This document shows positions 6,281 to 18,752 of a stretch of 35,787 nucleotides of DNA, piece by piece. The notes beneath the pieces were generated by a model, which was not told the origin of the DNA, searched no databases, and worked only from the letters and a program-made list of their open reading frames with translations. Position numbers and translations under genes: made by a program. This DNA comes from Spirochaetales bacterium. GTDB taxonomy: Bacteria > Spirochaetota > Spirochaetia > Treponematales > UBA12059. The stretch spans positions 1-35,787 of the forward strand of contig JAFGJV010000041.1 in NCBI GenBank assembly GCA_016928955.1, written 5' to 3'. The number at the start of each line of letters is the position of its first letter. The first letter of the stretch is position 1.

Positions 6281-7321
6281 TTACTTGGCGGGGATTTCGG
6301 AAACGACCAGCTCGCCGGAGGCGATCTTCTGGGCGTACTCGTTGACCTGGCTGATGATGTCAGCGGACAGGTTGGGGTTGGAATCGGGGATGCCAACGCC
6401 GTTGTTCTTGAGGGAGAACACCATCACGGTGCCGCCGGGGAACTGGCCGTCCAGGGTCATCTGGGACACGGTCTCGGCAGCCACGTCGACGCGCTTCATC
6501 ATGGAGGTGAGCACGGCGGACTTGTCGCCATACTGACCGTCGGTGTACTGGTCCTTGTCAACGCCGATGGCCCAGCGGATGTCGCCCTTCTCGGAGCGTT
6601 CCTTGGCCTCTTTGATCATGCCGTTGCCGGTGCCGCCAGCGGCGTGGAAGATGATGTAGGCGCCGGCCTTGTACTGCTTCTGAGCCAGGGCCTGTCCCTT
6701 GTCGGGAGCGCCGAAATCGCCGGCGTAGTCAACCAGGATGGTGGCTTCGGGGTACACGGCCTTGACGCCCTGCTCGAAACCGGCCTGGAACTTCTCGATG
6801 AGCGGGAACTGCATGCCGCCGAGGAAGCCGAGGACGGACTTGCCGTCGGCCTTGGCCTGGAGGCCGGCAGCCACGCCGACGAGGAAGGAACCTTCGTGCT
6901 CGGCAAAGGTGGCGCTGACCACGTTGGGCTTCTGGACCACGGTGTCAATGATCATGAACTTCTGCTCGGGGAAGCTGTCGGCGACCTCGCCCATGGCCAT
7001 CTCGAAAAGGAAGCCGGGGGCGATGATCAGGTCGAGCTTCTCATCGGCGAACGCGCTGAGGTTCGGAACGTAATCGGCCTCGGCGCCAGACTGCAGGTAC
7101 TTGTAATCGGTGCCCTGGACCAGGTTGTGGGCTCCACCGAAGCGGACAATGCCTTCCCAGGTGCCCTGGTTGAACGACTTGTCGTCAATACCACCGATAT
7201 CGGTCACAAGGCCGACCTTGAACTCGGGCTTCTCAACGACGGGGGTGGCGTCCTTCTTGGCGCAGCCGGTGAAAACAAGGGCTACGGCGAGGAGGGCAAC
7301 GAGGATTGTGCGGTACTTCAT
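6281..7321 (-). CDS. BMP-family nucleoside-binding lipoprotein (PnrA/TmpC-like)
   Basis: The protein has 346 residues. MKYRTILVALLAVALVFTGC is a lipoprotein signal with the lipidated Cys at about residue 20, so it is anchored outside the inner membrane. The mature protein matches the basic membrane protein family: VGLVTDIGGIDDKSFNQGTWEG at the start, LIIAPGFLFEMAMGEVADSFPEQKFMIID, FLVGVAAGLQAK, and the sugar/base pocket region HAAGGTGNGMI. Characterised members such as Treponema PnrA (TmpC) bind purine nucleosides. The start at 7321 is set by AAGGAGAG 7-8 nt upstream. It has a good promoter of its own and a terminator upstream, so it is expressed apart from the second receptor at 7454-8593. 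Substrate identity is inferred. Confidence 0.92.
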   Translation of the reverse strand: MKYRTILVALLAVALVFTGCAKKDATPVVEKPEFKVGLVTDIGGIDDKSFNQGTWEGIVRFGGAHNLVQGTDYKYLQSGAEADYVPNLSAFADEKLDLIIAPGFLFEMAMGEVADSFPEQKFMIIDTVVQKPNVVSATFAEHEGSFLVGVAAGLQAKADGKSVLGFLGGMQFPLIEKFQAGFEQGVKAVYPEATILVDYAGDFGAPDKGQALAQKQYKAGAYIIFHAAGGTGNGMIKEAKERSEKGDIRWAIGVDKDQYTDGQYGDKSAVLTSMMKRVDVAAETVSQMTLDGQFPGGTVMVFSLKNNGVGIPDSNPNLSADIISQVNEYAQKIASGELVVSEIPAK

Positions 7322-7363
7322 GTTCCTCTCTCCTTTACATCCCATTTGGCGGGTAGTGGAACG

Positions 7364-7453: not shown

Positions 7454-8593
7454 CTACCATAATCCATCGATGAACGCCCTGGCGCCCTGGTCGGTATAGG
7501 GGACGACGATGTCCCCGTTCTGTATCAGCTTGCGCAGGCCGCTGATGGCCGTCTTGTCCGCGGCGTCCATGCTGGCCGACACAAAGTCCACGCCCCCGTT
7601 GGCCAGGCCGAGCACCGTGTAACCGCCCTTAAAGGGCATGTCCTGCATGATTGCCATGCACTGGTCCCTGACCACCGGTCCCACGTTGCGTATCACCGAG
7701 CCCATGATAACGGGTGCCAGCGCCGCAAGTTCGGGATCATCGGACGCGGCGTATTCCGCCGCCTGGTCCATGTCCGAGCCAATGGCCAGCCGCCCGTAGC
7801 GGGCCGCGCTTTTGAACACGCCCGTGCCGGATGCGCCGGCCGTGTGGAACACCAGGATGGCGTTGCTGGTCCTGTAGAAAATCGACGCGTATTCCTCGGC
7901 GCGCTTAGGGTCGTTGTAGGCGCTGGCGTCCCGGCCCACAAAGCCCGACAGCACCATGCCGGTTTCCCTGAGACCGGGATTTGTCCATGCCGCGCCCGAG
8001 CTGAAGCCTGCCAGGGCCCCGCGCGCGACGGGCATGTCCAGGCCGCCCAGAAAGCCTATTTTGGATCCCTCTCCCGCGCGCGCGGCCAGCATGCCGGCAT
8101 AGGCTCCCGCCAGGAAGGCGCCTTCCTGGTCGGCAAAGCTCACGCAGGACACGTTGGACGAGCCGTCAAGGTCGGGCACATGGCCGTCTATCAGTACAAA
8201 GCTGGTGTCGGGATAGTCGCGGGCCACGGCGGCCAGGGACTCTGAGAACAGGTAGCCAACTGCTATGACCAGGTCGCGCTTTTCCTCGGCCAGCATGCGC
8301 AGGAGCTCGCGTCGCTCGCCGCCGTCCACCCCGACCTCCAGGATGCGTATCTCCAGGTTGCCGCCAAAGTTGGCGTTCTCGTCCGCCACGATGCGGCCGC
8401 GCACCGACGACACCACGCTCACGGCCGCCTCGTACACGGCCTGGTTGACGGCCCTGTCGTTCCGGCCGGCGGCGTCCAGGACGATGCCCGCGGTGGGCAC
8501 AAGGTCGGCCTTGGCCCTCTGCCCCCGGGCGAGCCCGCAGGACGAGGCAAGGACCAGGATAGCGGCAGCTGCCGCCAGGGTATTTCGCATCAT
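7454..8593 (-). CDS. second BMP-family substrate-binding protein (divergent paralogue)
   Basis: The protein has 379 residues. The N-terminus MMRNTLAAAAAILVLASSCG is a lipoprotein signal with Cys at about residue 19. The rest aligns with the receptor at 6281-7321: AGIVLDAAGRNDRAVNQAVYEA, DLVIAVGYLFSESLAAVARDYPDTSFVLID, EGAFLAGAYAGMLA, KIGFLGGLDMPV, FHTAGASGTGVF. In the first motif the usual GGIDDKSFNQ reads AGRNDRAVNQ, so ligand preference may differ. GGAGG lies 6 nt before the first ATG. It follows deoC by 55 bp with no promoter visible between, so deoC and this receptor are probably co-transcribed. It is inferred to share the single ABC transporter or to act as a sensor. Confidence 0.88.
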   Translation of the reverse strand: MMRNTLAAAAAILVLASSCGLARGQRAKADLVPTAGIVLDAAGRNDRAVNQAVYEAAVSVVSSVRGRIVADENANFGGNLEIRILEVGVDGGERRELLRMLAEEKRDLVIAVGYLFSESLAAVARDYPDTSFVLIDGHVPDLDGSSNVSCVSFADQEGAFLAGAYAGMLAARAGEGSKIGFLGGLDMPVARGALAGFSSGAAWTNPGLRETGMVLSGFVGRDASAYNDPKRAEEYASIFYRTSNAILVFHTAGASGTGVFKSAARYGRLAIGSDMDQAAEYAASDDPELAALAPVIMGSVIRNVGPVVRDQCMAIMQDMPFKGGYTVLGLANGGVDFVSASMDAADKTAISGLRKLIQNGDIVVPYTDQGARAFIDGLW

Positions 8594-8648: not shown

Positions 8649-9320
8649 CTATTCCGGCAATTCCGACACGATGGTCACGCCGCTGGACGATCCGAGCCTG
8701 TCGGCTCCGGCGTCCAGCATTTTTATGGCGTCATGGTAGCTGCGCAGGCCGCCTGAAGCCTTGATTCTAATGCGATCGCCCACGGTCTTGCGGATCAGGC
8801 GCACGTCCTCGGCGCTGGCCCCGCCGGTGCCGAACCCGGTGCTGGTCTTGACGTAGACGGCGCCCGCCTTGATGGCTGCCTCGCAGGCGCGGACCTTCTC
8901 AGCGTCGGTCAGGTAACAGGTTTCCAGTATGGCCTTGACCGGGGCCGTGCCCGCGGCCTTGACCACGGCGCGGATGTCTTCCTCAACGGTTTTCCAGTCG
9001 CCGGACTTGGCGGCGCCCAGGTTGATCACCATGTCCAGCTCGCCGGCGCCCTGCTTGACCGCCAGGCGGGCTTCCTCCGCCTTGACCGACGTGGCGTTGG
9101 CGCCCAGGGGATAGCCCACCACGGCGCACACCGTTATGCGGGTGCTGGACAGCTCGCGGGCGCATAGCGGCACCCAGAACGGATTGACGCACACGGCCGC
9201 AAAGCCGTTGGCGCGCGCCTCGGCGCACAGTTCGCGTATCTGCTGTTCGGTGGCGACGGCCTTGAACACGGTGTGGTCGATTGTTTTTGCCAGGCTCGAC
9301 TTTGTCCACTCTCTGGGCAC
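8649..9320 (-). CDS. deoC: deoxyribose-phosphate aldolase
   Basis: The protein has 223 residues, a normal family length. It cleaves 2-deoxyribose 5-phosphate to glyceraldehyde 3-phosphate and acetaldehyde in deoxynucleoside breakdown. The catalytic residues are visible: the Schiff-base Lys158 in VKTSTGFGTGG, Lys187 in RIKASGGLR and Asp96 in ELDMVINLG, plus the phosphate-binding RLGSSSG near the C-terminus. The start is a GTG at 9320 with AAGGAGC 6-7 nt upstream. The gene lies at the head of the BMP receptor/transporter block, which supports deoxynucleosides as a transported substrate. It begins about 20 nt after a palindromic repeat element and has no separate promoter that I can see. Confidence 0.95.
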   Translation of the reverse strand: MPREWTKSSLAKTIDHTVFKAVATEQQIRELCAEARANGFAAVCVNPFWVPLCARELSSTRITVCAVVGYPLGANATSVKAEEARLAVKQGAGELDMVINLGAAKSGDWKTVEEDIRAVVKAAGTAPVKAILETCYLTDAEKVRACEAAIKAGAVYVKTSTGFGTGGASAEDVRLIRKTVGDRIRIKASGGLRSYHDAIKMLDAGADRLGSSSGVTIVSELPE

Positions 9321-9341: not shown

Positions 9342-9376
9342 GGGAACCTCTAAAAACTGCAGTTTTTAGGGGCTCC
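9342..9376. repeat. single-palindrome copy of the MITE-like repeat family
   Basis: GGGAACCTCTAAAAACTG pairs with CAGTTTTTAGGGGCTCCC with two G-T or mismatched positions. The sequence CTTTA flanks it on both sides (9337-9341 and 9377-9381). The core CCTCTAAAAACTGCAGTTTTTAG is shared with the element at 12741-12766. It fills most of the gap between the HD hydrolase gene and deoC and could act as a transcriptional attenuator. Confidence 0.6.
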
Positions 9377-9378
9377 CT

Positions 9379-9981
9379 TTATATTTCGAAACACCGGGTC
9401 AGGAAGGCCCGCCTGGTCGTTACCAGTTCCTCCAGTTCAGCCCTCATGTCCCTGTTTGCCTTGTCCGCTATCGGGTATACGTAGCGCTCCGTCTCGTCTG
9501 AATAGCGCTTGATGAAATCCACGTCCGTGGTGTAGCCCAGCGATATCATGTTGCTGATGCGGTCGGCCGCCTTGAGCACCAGGGCGTTGGGCGACCCGAA
9601 GTCGAGTATGCGCGTGAGGAACTCCGGCTTGGTCTCCACCTGGCGCCGCGTCACCTCGAGCACCAGCTGGAACACGTCTGAGCTTTCCTCGTCTATGTCC
9701 AGGATGCCGTCCCGGTCAAAGTCCGGCAGGTCCTCCAGGAGGTCGTGGATGACGGACGCCTTGAGCAGGATCGAGTCGATGTAGCCGTAGTCCATGAGTA
9801 TGGCCATGGTGTCTATCTGGTGGCGGAACATGTTGCCGCCCGAGCGCCTGCGCTTGCCTATCAGGAAGGTGGCCAGCTGGATATACGGCGCCAGGTGCAT
9901 TTCCCTGAGCCGTATCATGCCGTCCTGGTCCATGATCGCGCGGGAGTCCTCCGCCCGCGGCGGTTTCACCTTCCTGGGCAT
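9379..9981 (-). CDS. SpoT/RelA-type HD hydrolase with EF-hand-like loop
   Basis: The protein has 200 residues. The metal-binding HD set is present: His54 in MFRHQIDTMAIL, HD79-80 with ED83-84 in VIHDLLED, and the RelA/SpoT-like LVLKAADRISNM, in which Asp completes the site. This order and the VIHDLLEDLP...VFQLVLEVTRR spacing follow the (p)ppGpp hydrolase domain of SpoT and small alarmone hydrolases. No synthetase domain is present. I infer, without proof, pyrophosphohydrolase activity on alarmone or another nucleotide. Residues 87-98 (DFDRDGILDIDE) form a textbook EF-hand loop at the point where relatives carry a short helix. The start is an ATG 9 bp after the valS stop, so it is likely co-transcribed with valS and ends in a palindromic repeat. 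Confidence 0.75.
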   Translation of the reverse strand: MPRKVKPPRAEDSRAIMDQDGMIRLREMHLAPYIQLATFLIGKRRRSGGNMFRHQIDTMAILMDYGYIDSILLKASVIHDLLEDLPDFDRDGILDIDEESSDVFQLVLEVTRRQVETKPEFLTRILDFGSPNALVLKAADRISNMISLGYTTDVDFIKRYSDETERYVYPIADKANRDMRAELEELVTTRRAFLTRCFEI

Positions 9982-9990
9982 GGCGACAGC

Positions 9991-12618
9991 CTACTCCAGG
10001 TCCTTGAGGTAGTTTTCAAGGCGGCCGGCGCGCGCCTGGGCCGCCTGGAGCTTGTCCCGCTCTTTTCCTACCACCTCGGCCGGCGCGGAGTCCGTAAAGC
10101 CGGGGTTGGCCAGCTTGGCCGCCACCTTCTGGGCAAACTGGCGTTCCTTGTCGGCCTCCTTGCGGAAGCGCGCGGCCAGCTGGGCCGTATCCACGGCTTC
10201 CCGCGCGAACACGTAGCAGTCAAAGCCCCTGCCGGCCAGGGCCAGGGCGCCCGCCGGCTTGTCGTTAACAAAGGACACGGATTCCGCGTTGCACAGCAGG
10301 GCCACCAGGTCGGCGTTGCGTCCAAGGAACTCAGCGTCTGGGCCGGCGTCCGGACGCACGGCCACCTTGAGCTTGCGCTCGGGCGCTATGCCGAACTCGC
10401 TCCTGAGGGCCCGCACCAGACTGACCAGCTCCTTGAGGGCTGCAAAGCCAGAGTCCAGCCCGGGATCCGCTCCGCGCTCGTCAGAGCTGGCGGGATAGGC
10501 ATGGCTGATGAGGCGGCCGGCGGCGTCCGGCAGGGTACCGTATATCTCCTCCGAAACAAAGGGCAGGAAGGGATGTATCAGGGCCAGGCTCCACTCGAGC
10601 ACGTCCAGGAGCACGCTGACGGCGCGGTCCTTCTCGGCGGCGTCCGGGGAGCGCGTGGACAGCTTGGTGGCTTCCAGGTACCAGTCGCAGAAGTCGTTCC
10701 AGAAGTACTCGTACACGGCAGCCGCCGCGTCGTTGAAGCGGTAGGCGGCCAGGGCGTCGGCAACGGCGGCCGACGAGGCGGCCAGCCGCCGGTATATCCA
10801 GCGGTCCGCGTCGTTCAGCCGGGGATCGGCCACGCGCGTCCTGCCGTCCAGGTTCATGAGTATGTAGCGGCTGGCGTTCCAAACCTTGTTGGCGAATTTG
10901 GACCCCAGCTTGAAGCTGTCCTTGTCCACCAGCACGTCCTGGCCCTGGCTGGTCAGGAAGGCCAGGGTGAACTTGAGGGCGTCAGCGCCGTATTCGTCGA
11001 CTATCTCCAGCGGATCAATGCCGTTACCCAGGCTTTTGGACATCTTGCGGCCCTGCTTGTCCCGCACCAGCGTGGTTATGTACACGTCGCGGAAGGGCAC
11101 CTGGCCGGTGAATTCCAGACCCGCCATCACCATGCGGGCCACCCAGAAGAAGATGATGTCGTACCCGGTCACCAGGGCGCTGGTCGGATAGTAGTTCCGG
11201 AGGTCGGCCGTGCTTTCCGGCCAGCCCATCACGCTGAAGGGCCATATCCACGAGCTGAACCAGGTGTCCAGCACGTCCTCGTCCTGGGTCAGTTCCGTGG
11301 ACGCGCAGTACGGGCAGGACAGCGGCTCCTCTCGGGCGACCACGGTCTTGCCGCAGTGGGCGCAGTGCCAGGCGGGTATGCGGTGCCCCCACCACAGCTG
11401 GCGGCTGATGCACCAGTCGCGGATGGTGGTCATCCAGTGCTCGTAGGTGTTCTCCCAGCGCTGGGGGAAGAAGCGCAGGTCGCCGTCCCGCCAGGCCTTG
11501 AGGGCTTTCTCGGCCAGCGGCTTCATCTTGACGAACCATTGCTCGGACAGGTACGGCTCGACCACGGTGTGGCAGCGGTAGCAGTGCCCCACAGAGTGCG
11601 TGATGGCCTCCTCCGACACAAAAAGGCCCAGGGCCTTGAGGTCTTCCACCACCAGCTTGCGGGCGTCCAGGGCCGACAGGCCGCGGTATTTTTCCGGCAC
11701 CTCGTCATTGAGCGTGCCGTTGGGATTGAGGATGTTGATGCGCGGCAGGTCGTGGCGGTTCCCCACCTCGAAGTCGTTCGGGTCGTGGGCCGGGGTGATC
11801 TTCACCAGGCCCGTGCCGAACTCGCGGTCCACGTAGGCGTCCGCTATCAGCGGTATGTCGCGGCCGGTCAGCGGCAGGCTCAGGCTGCGGCCGACCAGGG
11901 AGCTGTAGCGCTCGTCGTCCGGATGGCAGGCCACGGCCGCGTCTCCGAGCAGGGTCTCCGGCCGCGTGGTGGCTATCTCTATGGAGCCCGAGCCGTCGGC
12001 AAAGGGATAGCGTATGCGGTACATGGCGCCCGGCTCGTCGTCGTGCTCCACCTCGTCGTCCGCCAGGGCCGTGCCGCAGGACGAGCACCAGTTGACCAGG
12101 TACTTGCCCTTGTATATGAGGCCGCGCTCGTACAGGGTGACGAACACCTCGCGCACTGCCTTGGACAGACCCTCGTCCAGCGTGAAGCGCTCGCGGCTCC
12201 AGTCGCAGGACGCGCCTATCCTCTCCAGCTGCCGGGTGATGACCTCGTGGTGCTCCTTCTTGACCTTCCAGGTTTCCTCTACGAACTTCTCCCGGCCAAG
12301 CTCGTGCCTGCGGATGCCCTGCTCACGCAGGCGCTTCTCCACCACGTGCTGGGTGGCAATGCCCGCGTGGTCCGTGCCCGGGACCCAGAGCGTGGGCCTG
12401 CCGCCCATGCGGTGGAAGCGCACCAGGATGTCCTGCAGCGAGTTGTTGAGGCCGTGTCCCATGTGGAGGACGCCGGTCACGTTAGGCGGCGGAATGACGA
12501 CGACGAACGGCTTGCCCGAGCCCGTGGGCTTGAACGCCCCTTCGGCCTTCCAGGCCTTGTAGATGCGGTCTTCGAATTCTTTCGGGTCGTAGGCTTTGGC
12601 CAGTTCGACGGATTTCAT
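9991..12618 (-). CDS. valS: valyl-tRNA synthetase
   Basis: The protein has 875 residues and charges tRNA-Val in the cytoplasm. It is a class I enzyme. The HIGH motif is HMGH (residues 52-55 in PPPNVTGVLHMGHGLNN), and KMSKS is at about residues 525-529 (GRKMSKSLGNGIDP). An editing (CP1) domain region lies between (IEIATTRPETLLGD, ITPAHDPNDFEVG). A zinc-ribbon-like CAHCGK...CPYC pair precedes DEDVLDTWFSSW. The C-terminus is the usual coiled coil (ARFRKEADKERQFAQKVAAKL). The start MKSVELAKAY has GGAGG about 10 nt upstream; an in-frame ATG at 12687 lies upstream of the predicted transcription start and is rejected. Confidence 0.97.
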   Translation of the reverse strand: MKSVELAKAYDPKEFEDRIYKAWKAEGAFKPTGSGKPFVVVIPPPNVTGVLHMGHGLNNSLQDILVRFHRMGGRPTLWVPGTDHAGIATQHVVEKRLREQGIRRHELGREKFVEETWKVKKEHHEVITRQLERIGASCDWSRERFTLDEGLSKAVREVFVTLYERGLIYKGKYLVNWCSSCGTALADDEVEHDDEPGAMYRIRYPFADGSGSIEIATTRPETLLGDAAVACHPDDERYSSLVGRSLSLPLTGRDIPLIADAYVDREFGTGLVKITPAHDPNDFEVGNRHDLPRINILNPNGTLNDEVPEKYRGLSALDARKLVVEDLKALGLFVSEEAITHSVGHCYRCHTVVEPYLSEQWFVKMKPLAEKALKAWRDGDLRFFPQRWENTYEHWMTTIRDWCISRQLWWGHRIPAWHCAHCGKTVVAREEPLSCPYCASTELTQDEDVLDTWFSSWIWPFSVMGWPESTADLRNYYPTSALVTGYDIIFFWVARMVMAGLEFTGQVPFRDVYITTLVRDKQGRKMSKSLGNGIDPLEIVDEYGADALKFTLAFLTSQGQDVLVDKDSFKLGSKFANKVWNASRYILMNLDGRTRVADPRLNDADRWIYRRLAASSAAVADALAAYRFNDAAAAVYEYFWNDFCDWYLEATKLSTRSPDAAEKDRAVSVLLDVLEWSLALIHPFLPFVSEEIYGTLPDAAGRLISHAYPASSDERGADPGLDSGFAALKELVSLVRALRSEFGIAPERKLKVAVRPDAGPDAEFLGRNADLVALLCNAESVSFVNDKPAGALALAGRGFDCYVFAREAVDTAQLAARFRKEADKERQFAQKVAAKLANPGFTDSAPAEVVGKERDKLQAAQARAGRLENYLKDLE

Positions 12619-12677
12619 GGGAACGCGCCCTCCGATGCTACACTCGCGCCCCTTGAAGGTGGGACGCCATTCATTCC

Positions 12678-12706
12678 ACTGTAGCAAAAACGGGGAGCAT
12701 GTGCAA
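12678..12706 (-). promoter_or_regulatory. promoter of valS
   Basis: On the minus strand TTGCAC (12701-12706), a 17-nt spacer and TACAGT (12678-12683) give a start near 12671 and a leader of about 53 nt. That is too short for a T-box. Confidence 0.6.
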
Positions 12707-12738: not shown

Positions 12739-12842
12739 AGCCTCTAAAAACTGCAGTTTTTAGAGGGTTACCTTAAAAACCTTGCGTTTTCGGTCGAAAA
12801 CGCAGGGGACCTCTAATAACCATGGGGTTTTTAGAGGTCCCC
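12739..12842. repeat. three-hairpin MITE-like element, copy A
   Basis: There are three consecutive palindromes. A perfect 26-bp palindrome at 12741-12766 (CCTCTAAAAACTG and its complement) comes first. TGCGTTTTCG (12783-12792) then pairs with 12795-12804. GGGGACCTCTAA (12805-12816) pairs with 12831-12842. The outer ends form an inverted repeat (CCTCTAAAAAC). It shares structure and the linker GGGTTACCTTA with the element at 18648-18752. It sits between the cyclase gene and the valS promoter, and its edge overlaps the TAG stop of the cyclase gene. Confidence 0.8.
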
Positions 12843-14959
12843 TAGAGTCCCTCGCTCGGCCTTCCCCCGCCCCGCCACGTGAGCATGTCCTCCAGGTAGC
12901 GGCGCGTAGGCCCGTCGCCGGGCAGTATCACGTCGGCGGCCTCCAGTCTTTCCCGAGCCTGGTCAAAGTCGCGCTCGTAGTACGCCTCCACGCCGCGCTC
13001 GAAATCCGCGCGCGCCTTGTCCTTGCGGTCGCGGATCTGCGGCATGTCGCCGTCGTACAGGTCGAACACGGACACCGGCTTGGTCTTGCCCTTGACCCGC
13101 ACCTTGCCGATGAAGCGCATGCGGTACAGCGTGGGGTCCGGCAGGTCGGCCAGCACGCACTCGCTGGCGGCCACGCCGAGACCGAACTCCTTGGCCACGC
13201 CCTCAAGGCGGCTGGCCGTGTTCACCGCGTCGGCTATGACCGTGCCGTCCATGCGCACGGTCTCGCCTATGGTGCCCAGCATGAGGCGGCCAGTGTGGAC
13301 GCCTATGCCCACGGCCACCGGCTCCTGGCCGCGGGCAAAGCGCTCCTCGTTGTACTCGGCCACGCGGGCCTGTATGTCCAGCGCGCAGCGCACAGCGTCC
13401 TCGGAGCCGCCGGGGAACAGGGCCATGAAGCCGTCGCCCAGGTACTTGTCTATGAAGCCGCCGTGGGCACGCACCGCCGGCCCCGTGCGCGCCAGGTACT
13501 CGTTGATGAAGGCAAAGGTCTCCTCCGGGCTCAGGCGCTCGGCCAGGCGCGTGAAGGCGCGCACGTCCGCAAAGAGCACGGCCATGTCCTCCGCGCTGTT
13601 GTCGCCCAGCTGTATGTCCTCTATGGTGTCCCGCTTGAGGAAGCCCAGAAACTGCCTGGGCACAAAGCGCTCCAGGGACTCGTTGACGCGCTGCAGGTCC
13701 ATGGACAGGCGCTCGGCCATGGTGAAGGCGCCGGCAAAGAGGCGCGTCAGGTTGAGCGACAGCGCGAACAGGAATCCGACCAGGCCAAGCTGGAGCACGA
13801 AGGTGCCGTTGATGACGCCTGACGACACCAGCACGTCATGGACCATGGCGCCGAACAGGGCCAGAAAGCCCAGGCCGAACAGCCCCGAACCCCGGCGCCG
13901 GCGCACGGCCGCCAACACGATGGACGCGGCTATCCCGAGGCCCAGCACCACGATGCACAGCTGGTACCAGCGCAGGATCGTCGACGAGAGGAACGTGGGA
14001 GCCGCCACGATGACGGCTGAATAGGCGGCCGAGCTGACCACGGCCACCAGCACGCCTATGCGGGGAAATTCCCTTGGAAAGGTGGCGCGCACAAAGGCCG
14101 CGAACAGGGCGGCGGCCGCGGTAAAGGTCAGGTAGCCGCCCACGAACAGGGCGCGGAACGTCATGCCGGGAAACAGCGCCTGGATGTAGTACTCGTCGTA
14201 GAAAAGGACGCGGAGGCCGAGCACCAGGCAGATCAGGCCGAACCACAGGGACGCCCGGTCCCGGCGCCTGAAGGCAAAAAGCCCCAGGTAATAGGCGCCC
14301 ATCACCACGATGGCCCCGACCACGAAAAGCTCGTAGGCCACGGCCCGCTCCTTGGCCCCGAGCACGGCCCAGGGCGTGCCGAACAGGATGCTGGTGCGTA
14401 TGCCGCCCGAGCGGTCCGCGAAATTCGACACGTGGAGCACCAGGTCAACCACGCCGTCCGGGTCCGCCTGGAACAGGGCCACGGACGATTTCCAGCCGGG
14501 CTTTTCCGCGGCCGCCGTGGCGCCCGGCGATCCGTGGCTGTCCACCAGCTCGCCGTTAACGTAGATAAAGGCAGCGCTCAGGAACGACGACGCCTTGATC
14601 CCGTACGCCGAGCCGGGCTTTAGGCCCCGGACGCGCAGGTGCCAGGTGCCGTAGCCCCGCATGTCCACGCCGGCTATGCTGTAGGAGGACCACTCGGACG
14701 GAAACAGGTCCACCGTATCCGCGCGCGGCGCCGTTCCGTCTAGAAAGGCTCCTGGATCCACAAAGCGCTTCCAGTGGAACTCCCAGTCGCCGTCCAAGGC
14801 CACAGGACGTTCTAGATCCACGCCGCGCAGGTCCATGGCCCCGGCCGATGCTTTGGGTGCCGGCAGGACCGGCTGGGCGCAGGCTGAGAAGGCCAGGGTG
14901 GCGATTACTAAAATAACGCTGACTAAAAACGGGCGGATGGCGCCAGGGGATGCTCGCAT
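12842..14959 (-). CDS. membrane-bound class III adenylate cyclase with 7TM-DISM-like sensor
   Basis: The protein has 705 residues. An export/lipoprotein-like signal (LAFSACAQP) is followed by a periplasmic jelly-roll region of about 30-195 (DGDWEFHWKRF, GYGTWHLRVRGLK, IYVNGELVDSHG). About seven membrane segments follow (205-405) and then a cytoplasmic cyclase domain (455-635). This is the 7TMR-DISM layout. Catalytic residues are intact: metal Asp465 (FADVRAFT) and Asp509 (YLGDGFMALF), transition-state Asn580 and Arg584 (ADAVNTASRLE). Lys505 with Thr573 at the purine-selecting positions favours ATP, so cAMP is the likely product. All residues occur in one chain, so a homodimer is expected. A TPR-like C-terminal tail follows. 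It is transcribed alone, and its promoter lies almost on the ATG. The ligand is unknown. Confidence 0.88.
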   Translation of the reverse strand: MRASPGAIRPFLVSVILVIATLAFSACAQPVLPAPKASAGAMDLRGVDLERPVALDGDWEFHWKRFVDPGAFLDGTAPRADTVDLFPSEWSSYSIAGVDMRGYGTWHLRVRGLKPGSAYGIKASSFLSAAFIYVNGELVDSHGSPGATAAAEKPGWKSSVALFQADPDGVVDLVLHVSNFADRSGGIRTSILFGTPWAVLGAKERAVAYELFVVGAIVVMGAYYLGLFAFRRRDRASLWFGLICLVLGLRVLFYDEYYIQALFPGMTFRALFVGGYLTFTAAAALFAAFVRATFPREFPRIGVLVAVVSSAAYSAVIVAAPTFLSSTILRWYQLCIVVLGLGIAASIVLAAVRRRRGSGLFGLGFLALFGAMVHDVLVSSGVINGTFVLQLGLVGFLFALSLNLTRLFAGAFTMAERLSMDLQRVNESLERFVPRQFLGFLKRDTIEDIQLGDNSAEDMAVLFADVRAFTRLAERLSPEETFAFINEYLARTGPAVRAHGGFIDKYLGDGFMALFPGGSEDAVRCALDIQARVAEYNEERFARGQEPVAVGIGVHTGRLMLGTIGETVRMDGTVIADAVNTASRLEGVAKEFGLGVAASECVLADLPDPTLYRMRFIGKVRVKGKTKPVSVFDLYDGDMPQIRDRKDKARADFERGVEAYYERDFDQARERLEAADVILPGDGPTRRYLEDMLTWRGGGRPSEGL

Positions 14960-18647: not shown

Positions 18648-18752
18648 GACCCTCTAAAAACTGCAATTTTTAGAGGGTTACCTTAGAAAACCCAGCGTTT
18701 TCGGCCGAAAACGCTGGGAACCTCTAATAACCAAGGCGTTTTTAGAGGTTCC
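18648..18752. repeat. three-hairpin MITE-like element, copy C
   Basis: The layout matches the element at 12739-12842. A first palindrome with CCTCTAAAAACTG is at 18651-18676. A perfect 28-bp palindrome is at 18691-18718 (CCCAGCGTTTTCGG and its complement). GGGAACCTCTAA (18716-18727) pairs with 18742-18753. Compared with copy A the stems differ at both partners, which is compensatory change. CTAGTGG occurs on each flank (18641-18647 and 18753-18759), which looks like a target-site duplication. The right copy supplies the stop codon of the small FeoB-associated gene. Confidence 0.8.

Follow-up and report, generated by a model that had tools for sequence, protein, structure and literature searches.

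The window, i.e. the whole stretch of 35,787 nucleotides that was analysed, encodes a protein of 200 amino acids (positions 9379 to 9981, minus strand) which very probably acts as a Mn2+-dependent small alarmone hydrolase (SAH), probably made from one transcript with valyl-tRNA synthetase (ValRS), beside a long RSH that has become a mere synthetase. This explanation draws on sequence comparison, with activity and metal requirement carried over by analogy from an orthologue. The enzyme would be of the Tde-SAH (ActSpo2) type and would remove the 3′-pyrophosphate from (pp)pGpp and probably from (p)ppApp. Alarmone would be made by the long RSH, which here and in most of the order appears to have kept its synthetase site and lost its hydrolase site, and by a small synthetase bearing TPR repeats, and it would be removed by the SAH. 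A RelA-like synthetase and a stand-alone hydrolase would replace one two-way Rel.

The gene had been described in an earlier note on this DNA as coding for a SpoT-like alarmone hydrolase, and this assignment is supported by sequence, by a predicted fold that matches the structure of a solved orthologue, Tde-SAH of Treponema denticola, and by the published biochemistry of the latter. The protein has a single HD domain and no synthetase domain (no match to PF04607 in the Pfam search), as expected for SAHs of about 180–210 aa; its only Pfam match is a weak one to HD_4 (17.9 bits, cut-off 27.2). The closest solved chain is 7p1y (phmmer, E 2.5e-63), whose record is entitled small alarmone hydrolase TdActApo2 mutant T78N. 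An AlphaFold2 model calculated from a 51-row alignment (mean pLDDT 90.5) matches this chain with Z 29.6 and an rmsd of 0.9 over 174 residues, and other SAH and MESH1 structures with Z 18–20. A stretch of the 7p1y sequence shares 98.8% identity over 170 aa with a locus (L129) of genus g3; the differences are an N in the crystal at the site equivalent to D84 of the window SAH and one other. All residues of the RSH hydrolase site (R45, H54, H79, D80, E83, D84, D140 and N144) are present in the window SAH and in 80/80 orthologues, the best 80 of 134 loci from one genome scan. HD (aa 79–80) and ED (aa 83–84) make up the metal and catalytic motif (aa 79–84, positions 9730–9747, minus strand). By orthology to Tde-SAH the protein would belong to the ActSpo2 subfamily. 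The consulted parts of the published study describe Tde-SAH as a homodimer with Mn2+-dependent hydrolysis of pppGpp, ppGpp, pGpp, pppApp and ppApp, an inactive D74A variant and negligible activity with Ca2+ as the tested metal (PMC10434055). These parts contain no description of Ca2+ modulating the Mn2+-driven enzyme, and no mention of the PDB code 7P1Y was found in the literature searched.

Just behind the metal motif a calcium-binding EF-hand that tunes alarmone hydrolysis had been proposed. The stretch DFDRDGILDIDE (aa 87–98) is indeed encoded exactly at 9688–9723 on the minus strand, two residues past HD..ED, and the letters D1, D3, D5, G6, hydrophobic 8 and E12 are all there. Nevertheless, conservation, pattern, profile and predicted structure all speak against an EF-hand, which we reject. 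In the alignment at the loop, neither Gly6 nor the full pattern occurs in any of the best 80 of 134 orthologues, and D1, D3 and D5 are found jointly in only eight of them. A looser pattern without Gly fits 16 of these best 80; thus an acidic turn is common, while the calcium-loop letters are not kept, even among the closest orthologues and in a family in which the catalytic residues are invariant. Such a lack of conservation in close orthologues had been named in the earlier note as refuting the proposal. Position 98 (E12) is E in 24/80 and Y, S, F or A in 44/80, and around the loop P86 (77/80), D97 (76/80), V103 (79/80) and L106 (80/80) are retained (best 80 of 134 in each case). Gly6 is likewise found in none of a second set of 49 loci that overlaps the first in species, one locus of which does not cover the site and one of which is gapped there. 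At aa 92 most relatives carry L, R, K, S or Q; since the family consensus is already acidic, the single G in the window SAH completes the EF-hand-like pattern. The closest relative found (80% identity) has DLDRDRILGIDE at the loop, and 7p1y has DFNVNEILSIDS. Residue 13 of the loop is E, so that PROSITE pattern PS00018, which we take to require a hydrophobic residue here, fails on the window SAH, as it does in all of the best 80 of 134 orthologues. Pfam EF-hand families gave no match to the window SAH at E ≤ 0.1 and none among 51 family members at E ≤ 0.01. The model has helices at aa 81–84, 91–94 and 100–109, with pLDDT 92–96 in the blocks of the loop; the second helix would put a helical turn at loop positions 5–8, and the secondary structure of the model shows neither a loop open at positions 1–9 between two helices nor a long entering helix. 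A loose form of the pattern at the DNA level hits five sites in the 2.87-Mb genome (all frames) versus none for a reversed-pattern control, and is thus uncommon, not unique. Judged by alignment and model, the EF-hand-like letters are a one-off coincidence in the acidic turn that follows the metal motif and very probably form no calcium site.

Upstream of the SAH gene lies valS for valine–tRNA ligase (9991–12687, minus strand, likely start ATG at 12618; NCBIfam NF004349 above cut-off). The 9-bp link between the two genes that had been pointed out is confirmed: with the end of the valS ORF at 9991 and the start of the SAH ORF at 9981, positions 9982–9990 lie between valS stop and SAH start codon. 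The linkage is also conserved among relatives. It is found in 78/80 loci (best 80 of 134; absent from L035 and L081), where the distance from the valS stop codon to the aligned SAH start ranges from −46 (stop past the start) to 205 bases, with a median of 35; the negative distances arise because some alignments begin upstream of the start codon. Among 75 SAH hits in 74 genomes, valS is located upstream on the same strand within 3 kb in 66, which represent four families and include two genomes (G281 and G081) with 1.0–1.6 kb between the genes. The nine unlinked hits come from five g3 genomes, from G275, G306 and G310, and from a second copy in G297. Of these, G306 is a split assembly and G310 a fragment in which no valS was found. 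In 5/5 g3 genomes (T. denticola type) and in G275 the link is broken and the SAH is kept; the g3 genomes carry it about 15–21 kb from the small synthetase. From the spacing and the conserved gene order, SAH and ValRS are probably translated from the same transcript. In searches for control elements, no Rfam family reached its gathering score anywhere in the window, be it T-box or other RNA control of valS, and the three terminator-like matches between 9250 and 13000 are no excess over the shuffle mean of 3.0.

Several observations were made on these loci and their surroundings. The second copy in G297 (L132, G297:C9:20590-21153) is a SAH-like gene with 45% identity, in a genome of the same family, that is located away from valS. 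In L081 the 740 bp upstream of the SAH (L081:1-740) contain no valS; the gene found there resembles the manganese efflux pump MntP by reading of its translation, and the SAH family is Mn2+-dependent. In the window the valS-SAH pair is flanked on both sides by the dispersed palindromic repeat CTAAAAACTGCAGTTTTTAG, downstream of SAH at 9350–9369 and upstream of valS at 12744–12763. With a further copy at 18654–18673 it occurs three times (one copy with a mismatch) versus none in shuffles, and genome-wide its half-site pattern gives 32 strand matches, many at the same places. Between valS and the next gene upstream, which encodes a 7TMR-DISM receptor fused to an adenylate/guanylate cyclase domain (12842–14959, minus strand), a terminator-like hairpin with a T run (12783–12804, minus strand) would make valS-SAH a separate unit, although such matches are overall at chance level in the scan. 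On the other side, two adjacent genes for PnrA/Bmp-like substrate-binding proteins (6281–7345 and 7454–8593, minus strand), the second scoring much lower, stand beside a gene for a DeoC-type aldolase (8649–9320).

The synthetases of the same genome are a long RSH of 681 aa (contig C32) and a small synthetase of 414 aa with TPR repeats (contig C13). The long RSH matches HD_4 at 134.5 bits. At the HD..ED site it reads LLHHAMEHA, i.e. HD..ED has become HH..EH, and in LADKLDSM the N is replaced by S. Only 5/8 hydrolase residues are left, and D, R, K, Y, E and Q of the synthetase site are retained, a pattern of loss and retention that marks it as a putative RelA-like, synthetase-only enzyme. We scored the eight hydrolase residues in this protein and in 58 of 59 further long RSHs of the order. 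All eight are present in just two of the 59 (G191 and G262), and in each of the remaining 57 one or more of the HD and ED residues are gone. Conversely, the synthetase residues are complete in 59/59 (D and R of DLFGIR; D, Y, K, N and Y of DYIAMPKSNGY; E, Q and R of EIQIRT). All eight hydrolase residues are found in 19/19 long RSHs of the same class that come from other-order, SAH-less genomes among the matches listed in the phylum survey. A genome of the same order without SAH would be predicted to retain the site, and this is the case for G312 (83% complete; HDILEDT, ADKLNNM). In two further genomes without a detected SAH (G305 and G314) the long RSH is degenerate; valS was found in neither assembly, so these assemblies may just not include the SAH locus. 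G191 and G262 carry a SAH and keep both sites; thus the presence of a SAH does not force loss of the hydrolase site.

A tree of 78 long RSH rows, restricted to spirochaetes and rooted for drawing only, separates the 19 outgroup rows with support 100/96. The degenerate label needs two changes on this tree, one of them within family f3, in which G209 has a degenerate site and G191 and G262 an intact one. If the intact state is ancestral, there were at least two losses of the hydrolase site. Acquisition of the order's long RSHs from elsewhere was considered and is unsupported, the 19 outgroup rows forming one side of a branch in this spirochaete-only tree. The titles and abstract beginnings of the open-licence PMC articles listed contained no report of hydrolase-site loss in treponeme long RSHs.

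A SAH was detected at E ≤ 1e-10 in 57/296 genomes of the phylum, all of them in the order of the window as labelled. The only same-order genome listed without SAH in this set is G056 (1.1 Mb), which has no RelA_SpoT match either. Among the 30 nearest relatives 26 have a SAH; it was not found in G056, G305, G312 and G314. Eight genomes with a SAH have no match to a long RSH, namely the five of g3 and three of family f3 (G138, G173 and G294), and keep a small synthetase; this extends the absence of a long RSH, reported for other species, to members of f3. Decay of the long RSH site in 57/59 proteins versus invariance of the SAH residues in the best 80 of 134 orthologues suggests that the destruction of alarmone has probably moved to the SAH. 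In most spirochaetes of the order the SAH is probably the sole alarmone hydrolase, because the long RSH residues are lost in the order, while all eight are kept in the SAH-less relatives from other orders and HD..ED is kept in G312. The lost residues are strong, though indirect, evidence. Against the sole-hydrolase reading, other enzymes, e.g. of NUDIX type, could degrade alarmones too.

Other explanations have to be weighed against this one. That the loop is a working EF-hand which binds Ca2+ and tunes hydrolysis is extremely improbable, even with all six named positions matching. Conservation, residue 13, the Pfam results and the predicted helix within the loop are against it; furthermore, EF-hands are usually paired, and no second one was seen in the window SAH. 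According to the part of PMC3153485 consulted, an EF-hand domain that binds calcium is present in plant Rsh4 enzymes, but the Tde-SAH data given above for Ca2+ alone argue against a similar role here. It is also improbable, though less so, that the main substrate is not (p)ppGpp but a different molecule with a 3′-phosphate or 3′-pyrophosphate, be it (p)ppApp, NADPH (as for MESH1) or pyrophosphorylated tRNA ends, with the valS link serving to protect tRNA charging. Some SAHs act on tRNA, the neighbouring gene charges tRNA, and the fold matches include structures of human MESH1 with NADPH and with PAPS. In the published data consulted (PMC10434055), Tde-SAH cleaves (pp)pGpp efficiently and (p)ppApp about half as fast, and the occurrence of SAH alongside synthetases and long RSHs with a degenerate hydrolase site fits (p)ppGpp.

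For the valS link itself the balance is even: it may equally well be a mere inherited gene order without regulatory meaning. Its loss in the whole T. denticola group and in G275 with retention of the SAH and the lack of an Rfam element in the window are in line with this, as are the open-licence PMC articles listed, whose titles and abstract beginnings yielded no report of valS linked to an alarmone hydrolase. On the other hand, the order persists in diverged genomes of four families, usually within tens of bases. A regulatory meaning of shared transcription is a guess, which the conserved order favours and the loss in g3 and G275 disfavours. We therefore put forward only tentatively, as a rather unlikely reading, that the two-way Rel is now synthetase-only in most of the order, that the SAH encoded with valS is the sole hydrolase, and that exit from the stringent response is set by how strongly a tRNA-charging operon is expressed; the sole-hydrolase half of it is well supported by the residue comparisons. 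In a bolder form, tRNA ends carrying a 3′-pyrophosphate may be a further substrate of the SAH, and this would account for the position of its gene next to that of a tRNA synthetase. If synthesis and destruction of alarmone are indeed divided between long RSH and SAH in the order, cells with active synthetases should be unable to do without the SAH, T. denticola without a long RSH would be the end point of a trend and not an oddity, and the valS operon could be tested as a point at which the stringent response is controlled.

In a whole bacterial order, the synthesis of alarmone seems to be left to a RelA-like long RSH and its destruction to a single small hydrolase, separately from the RelA/SpoT split of gamma-proteobacteria. 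In the latter, synthesis and hydrolysis are split between two long RSHs. In both systems the hydrolase domain of one long RSH is non-functional, as predicted here, and a separate enzyme hydrolyses alarmone, but the hydrolytic partner in spirochaetes would be a small SAH instead of a second long RSH, and we infer a separate origin within the spirochaetes. The consulted part of PMC3153485 also bears on the RelA/SpoT split, and according to it plant Rsh4 is a long RSH that has a synthetase domain and a C-terminal EF-hand domain. The Ca2+-activated Rsh4/CRSH and the window SAH share the RSH superfamily and the calcium motif once claimed for the latter, which has neither an EF-hand domain nor a synthetase domain. 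Corynebacterium RelH, Leptospira RelH, Pseudomonas SAH and MESH1 are HD-fold single-domain alarmone hydrolases as well (the Z 18–20 matches), but with only 17–24% identity they represent other SAH families. The nearest counterpart is Tde-SAH (TDE1690, ActSpo2, PDB 7p1y), a single HD domain with about 57–59% identity, all catalytic residues and the same fold, which likewise co-occurs with a TPR-bearing small synthetase. T. denticola differs in having no long RSH and, judged by the g3 genomes, a SAH that is not beside valS, whereas in the genome of the window a long RSH is present, its hydrolase site lost, and the SAH follows valS.
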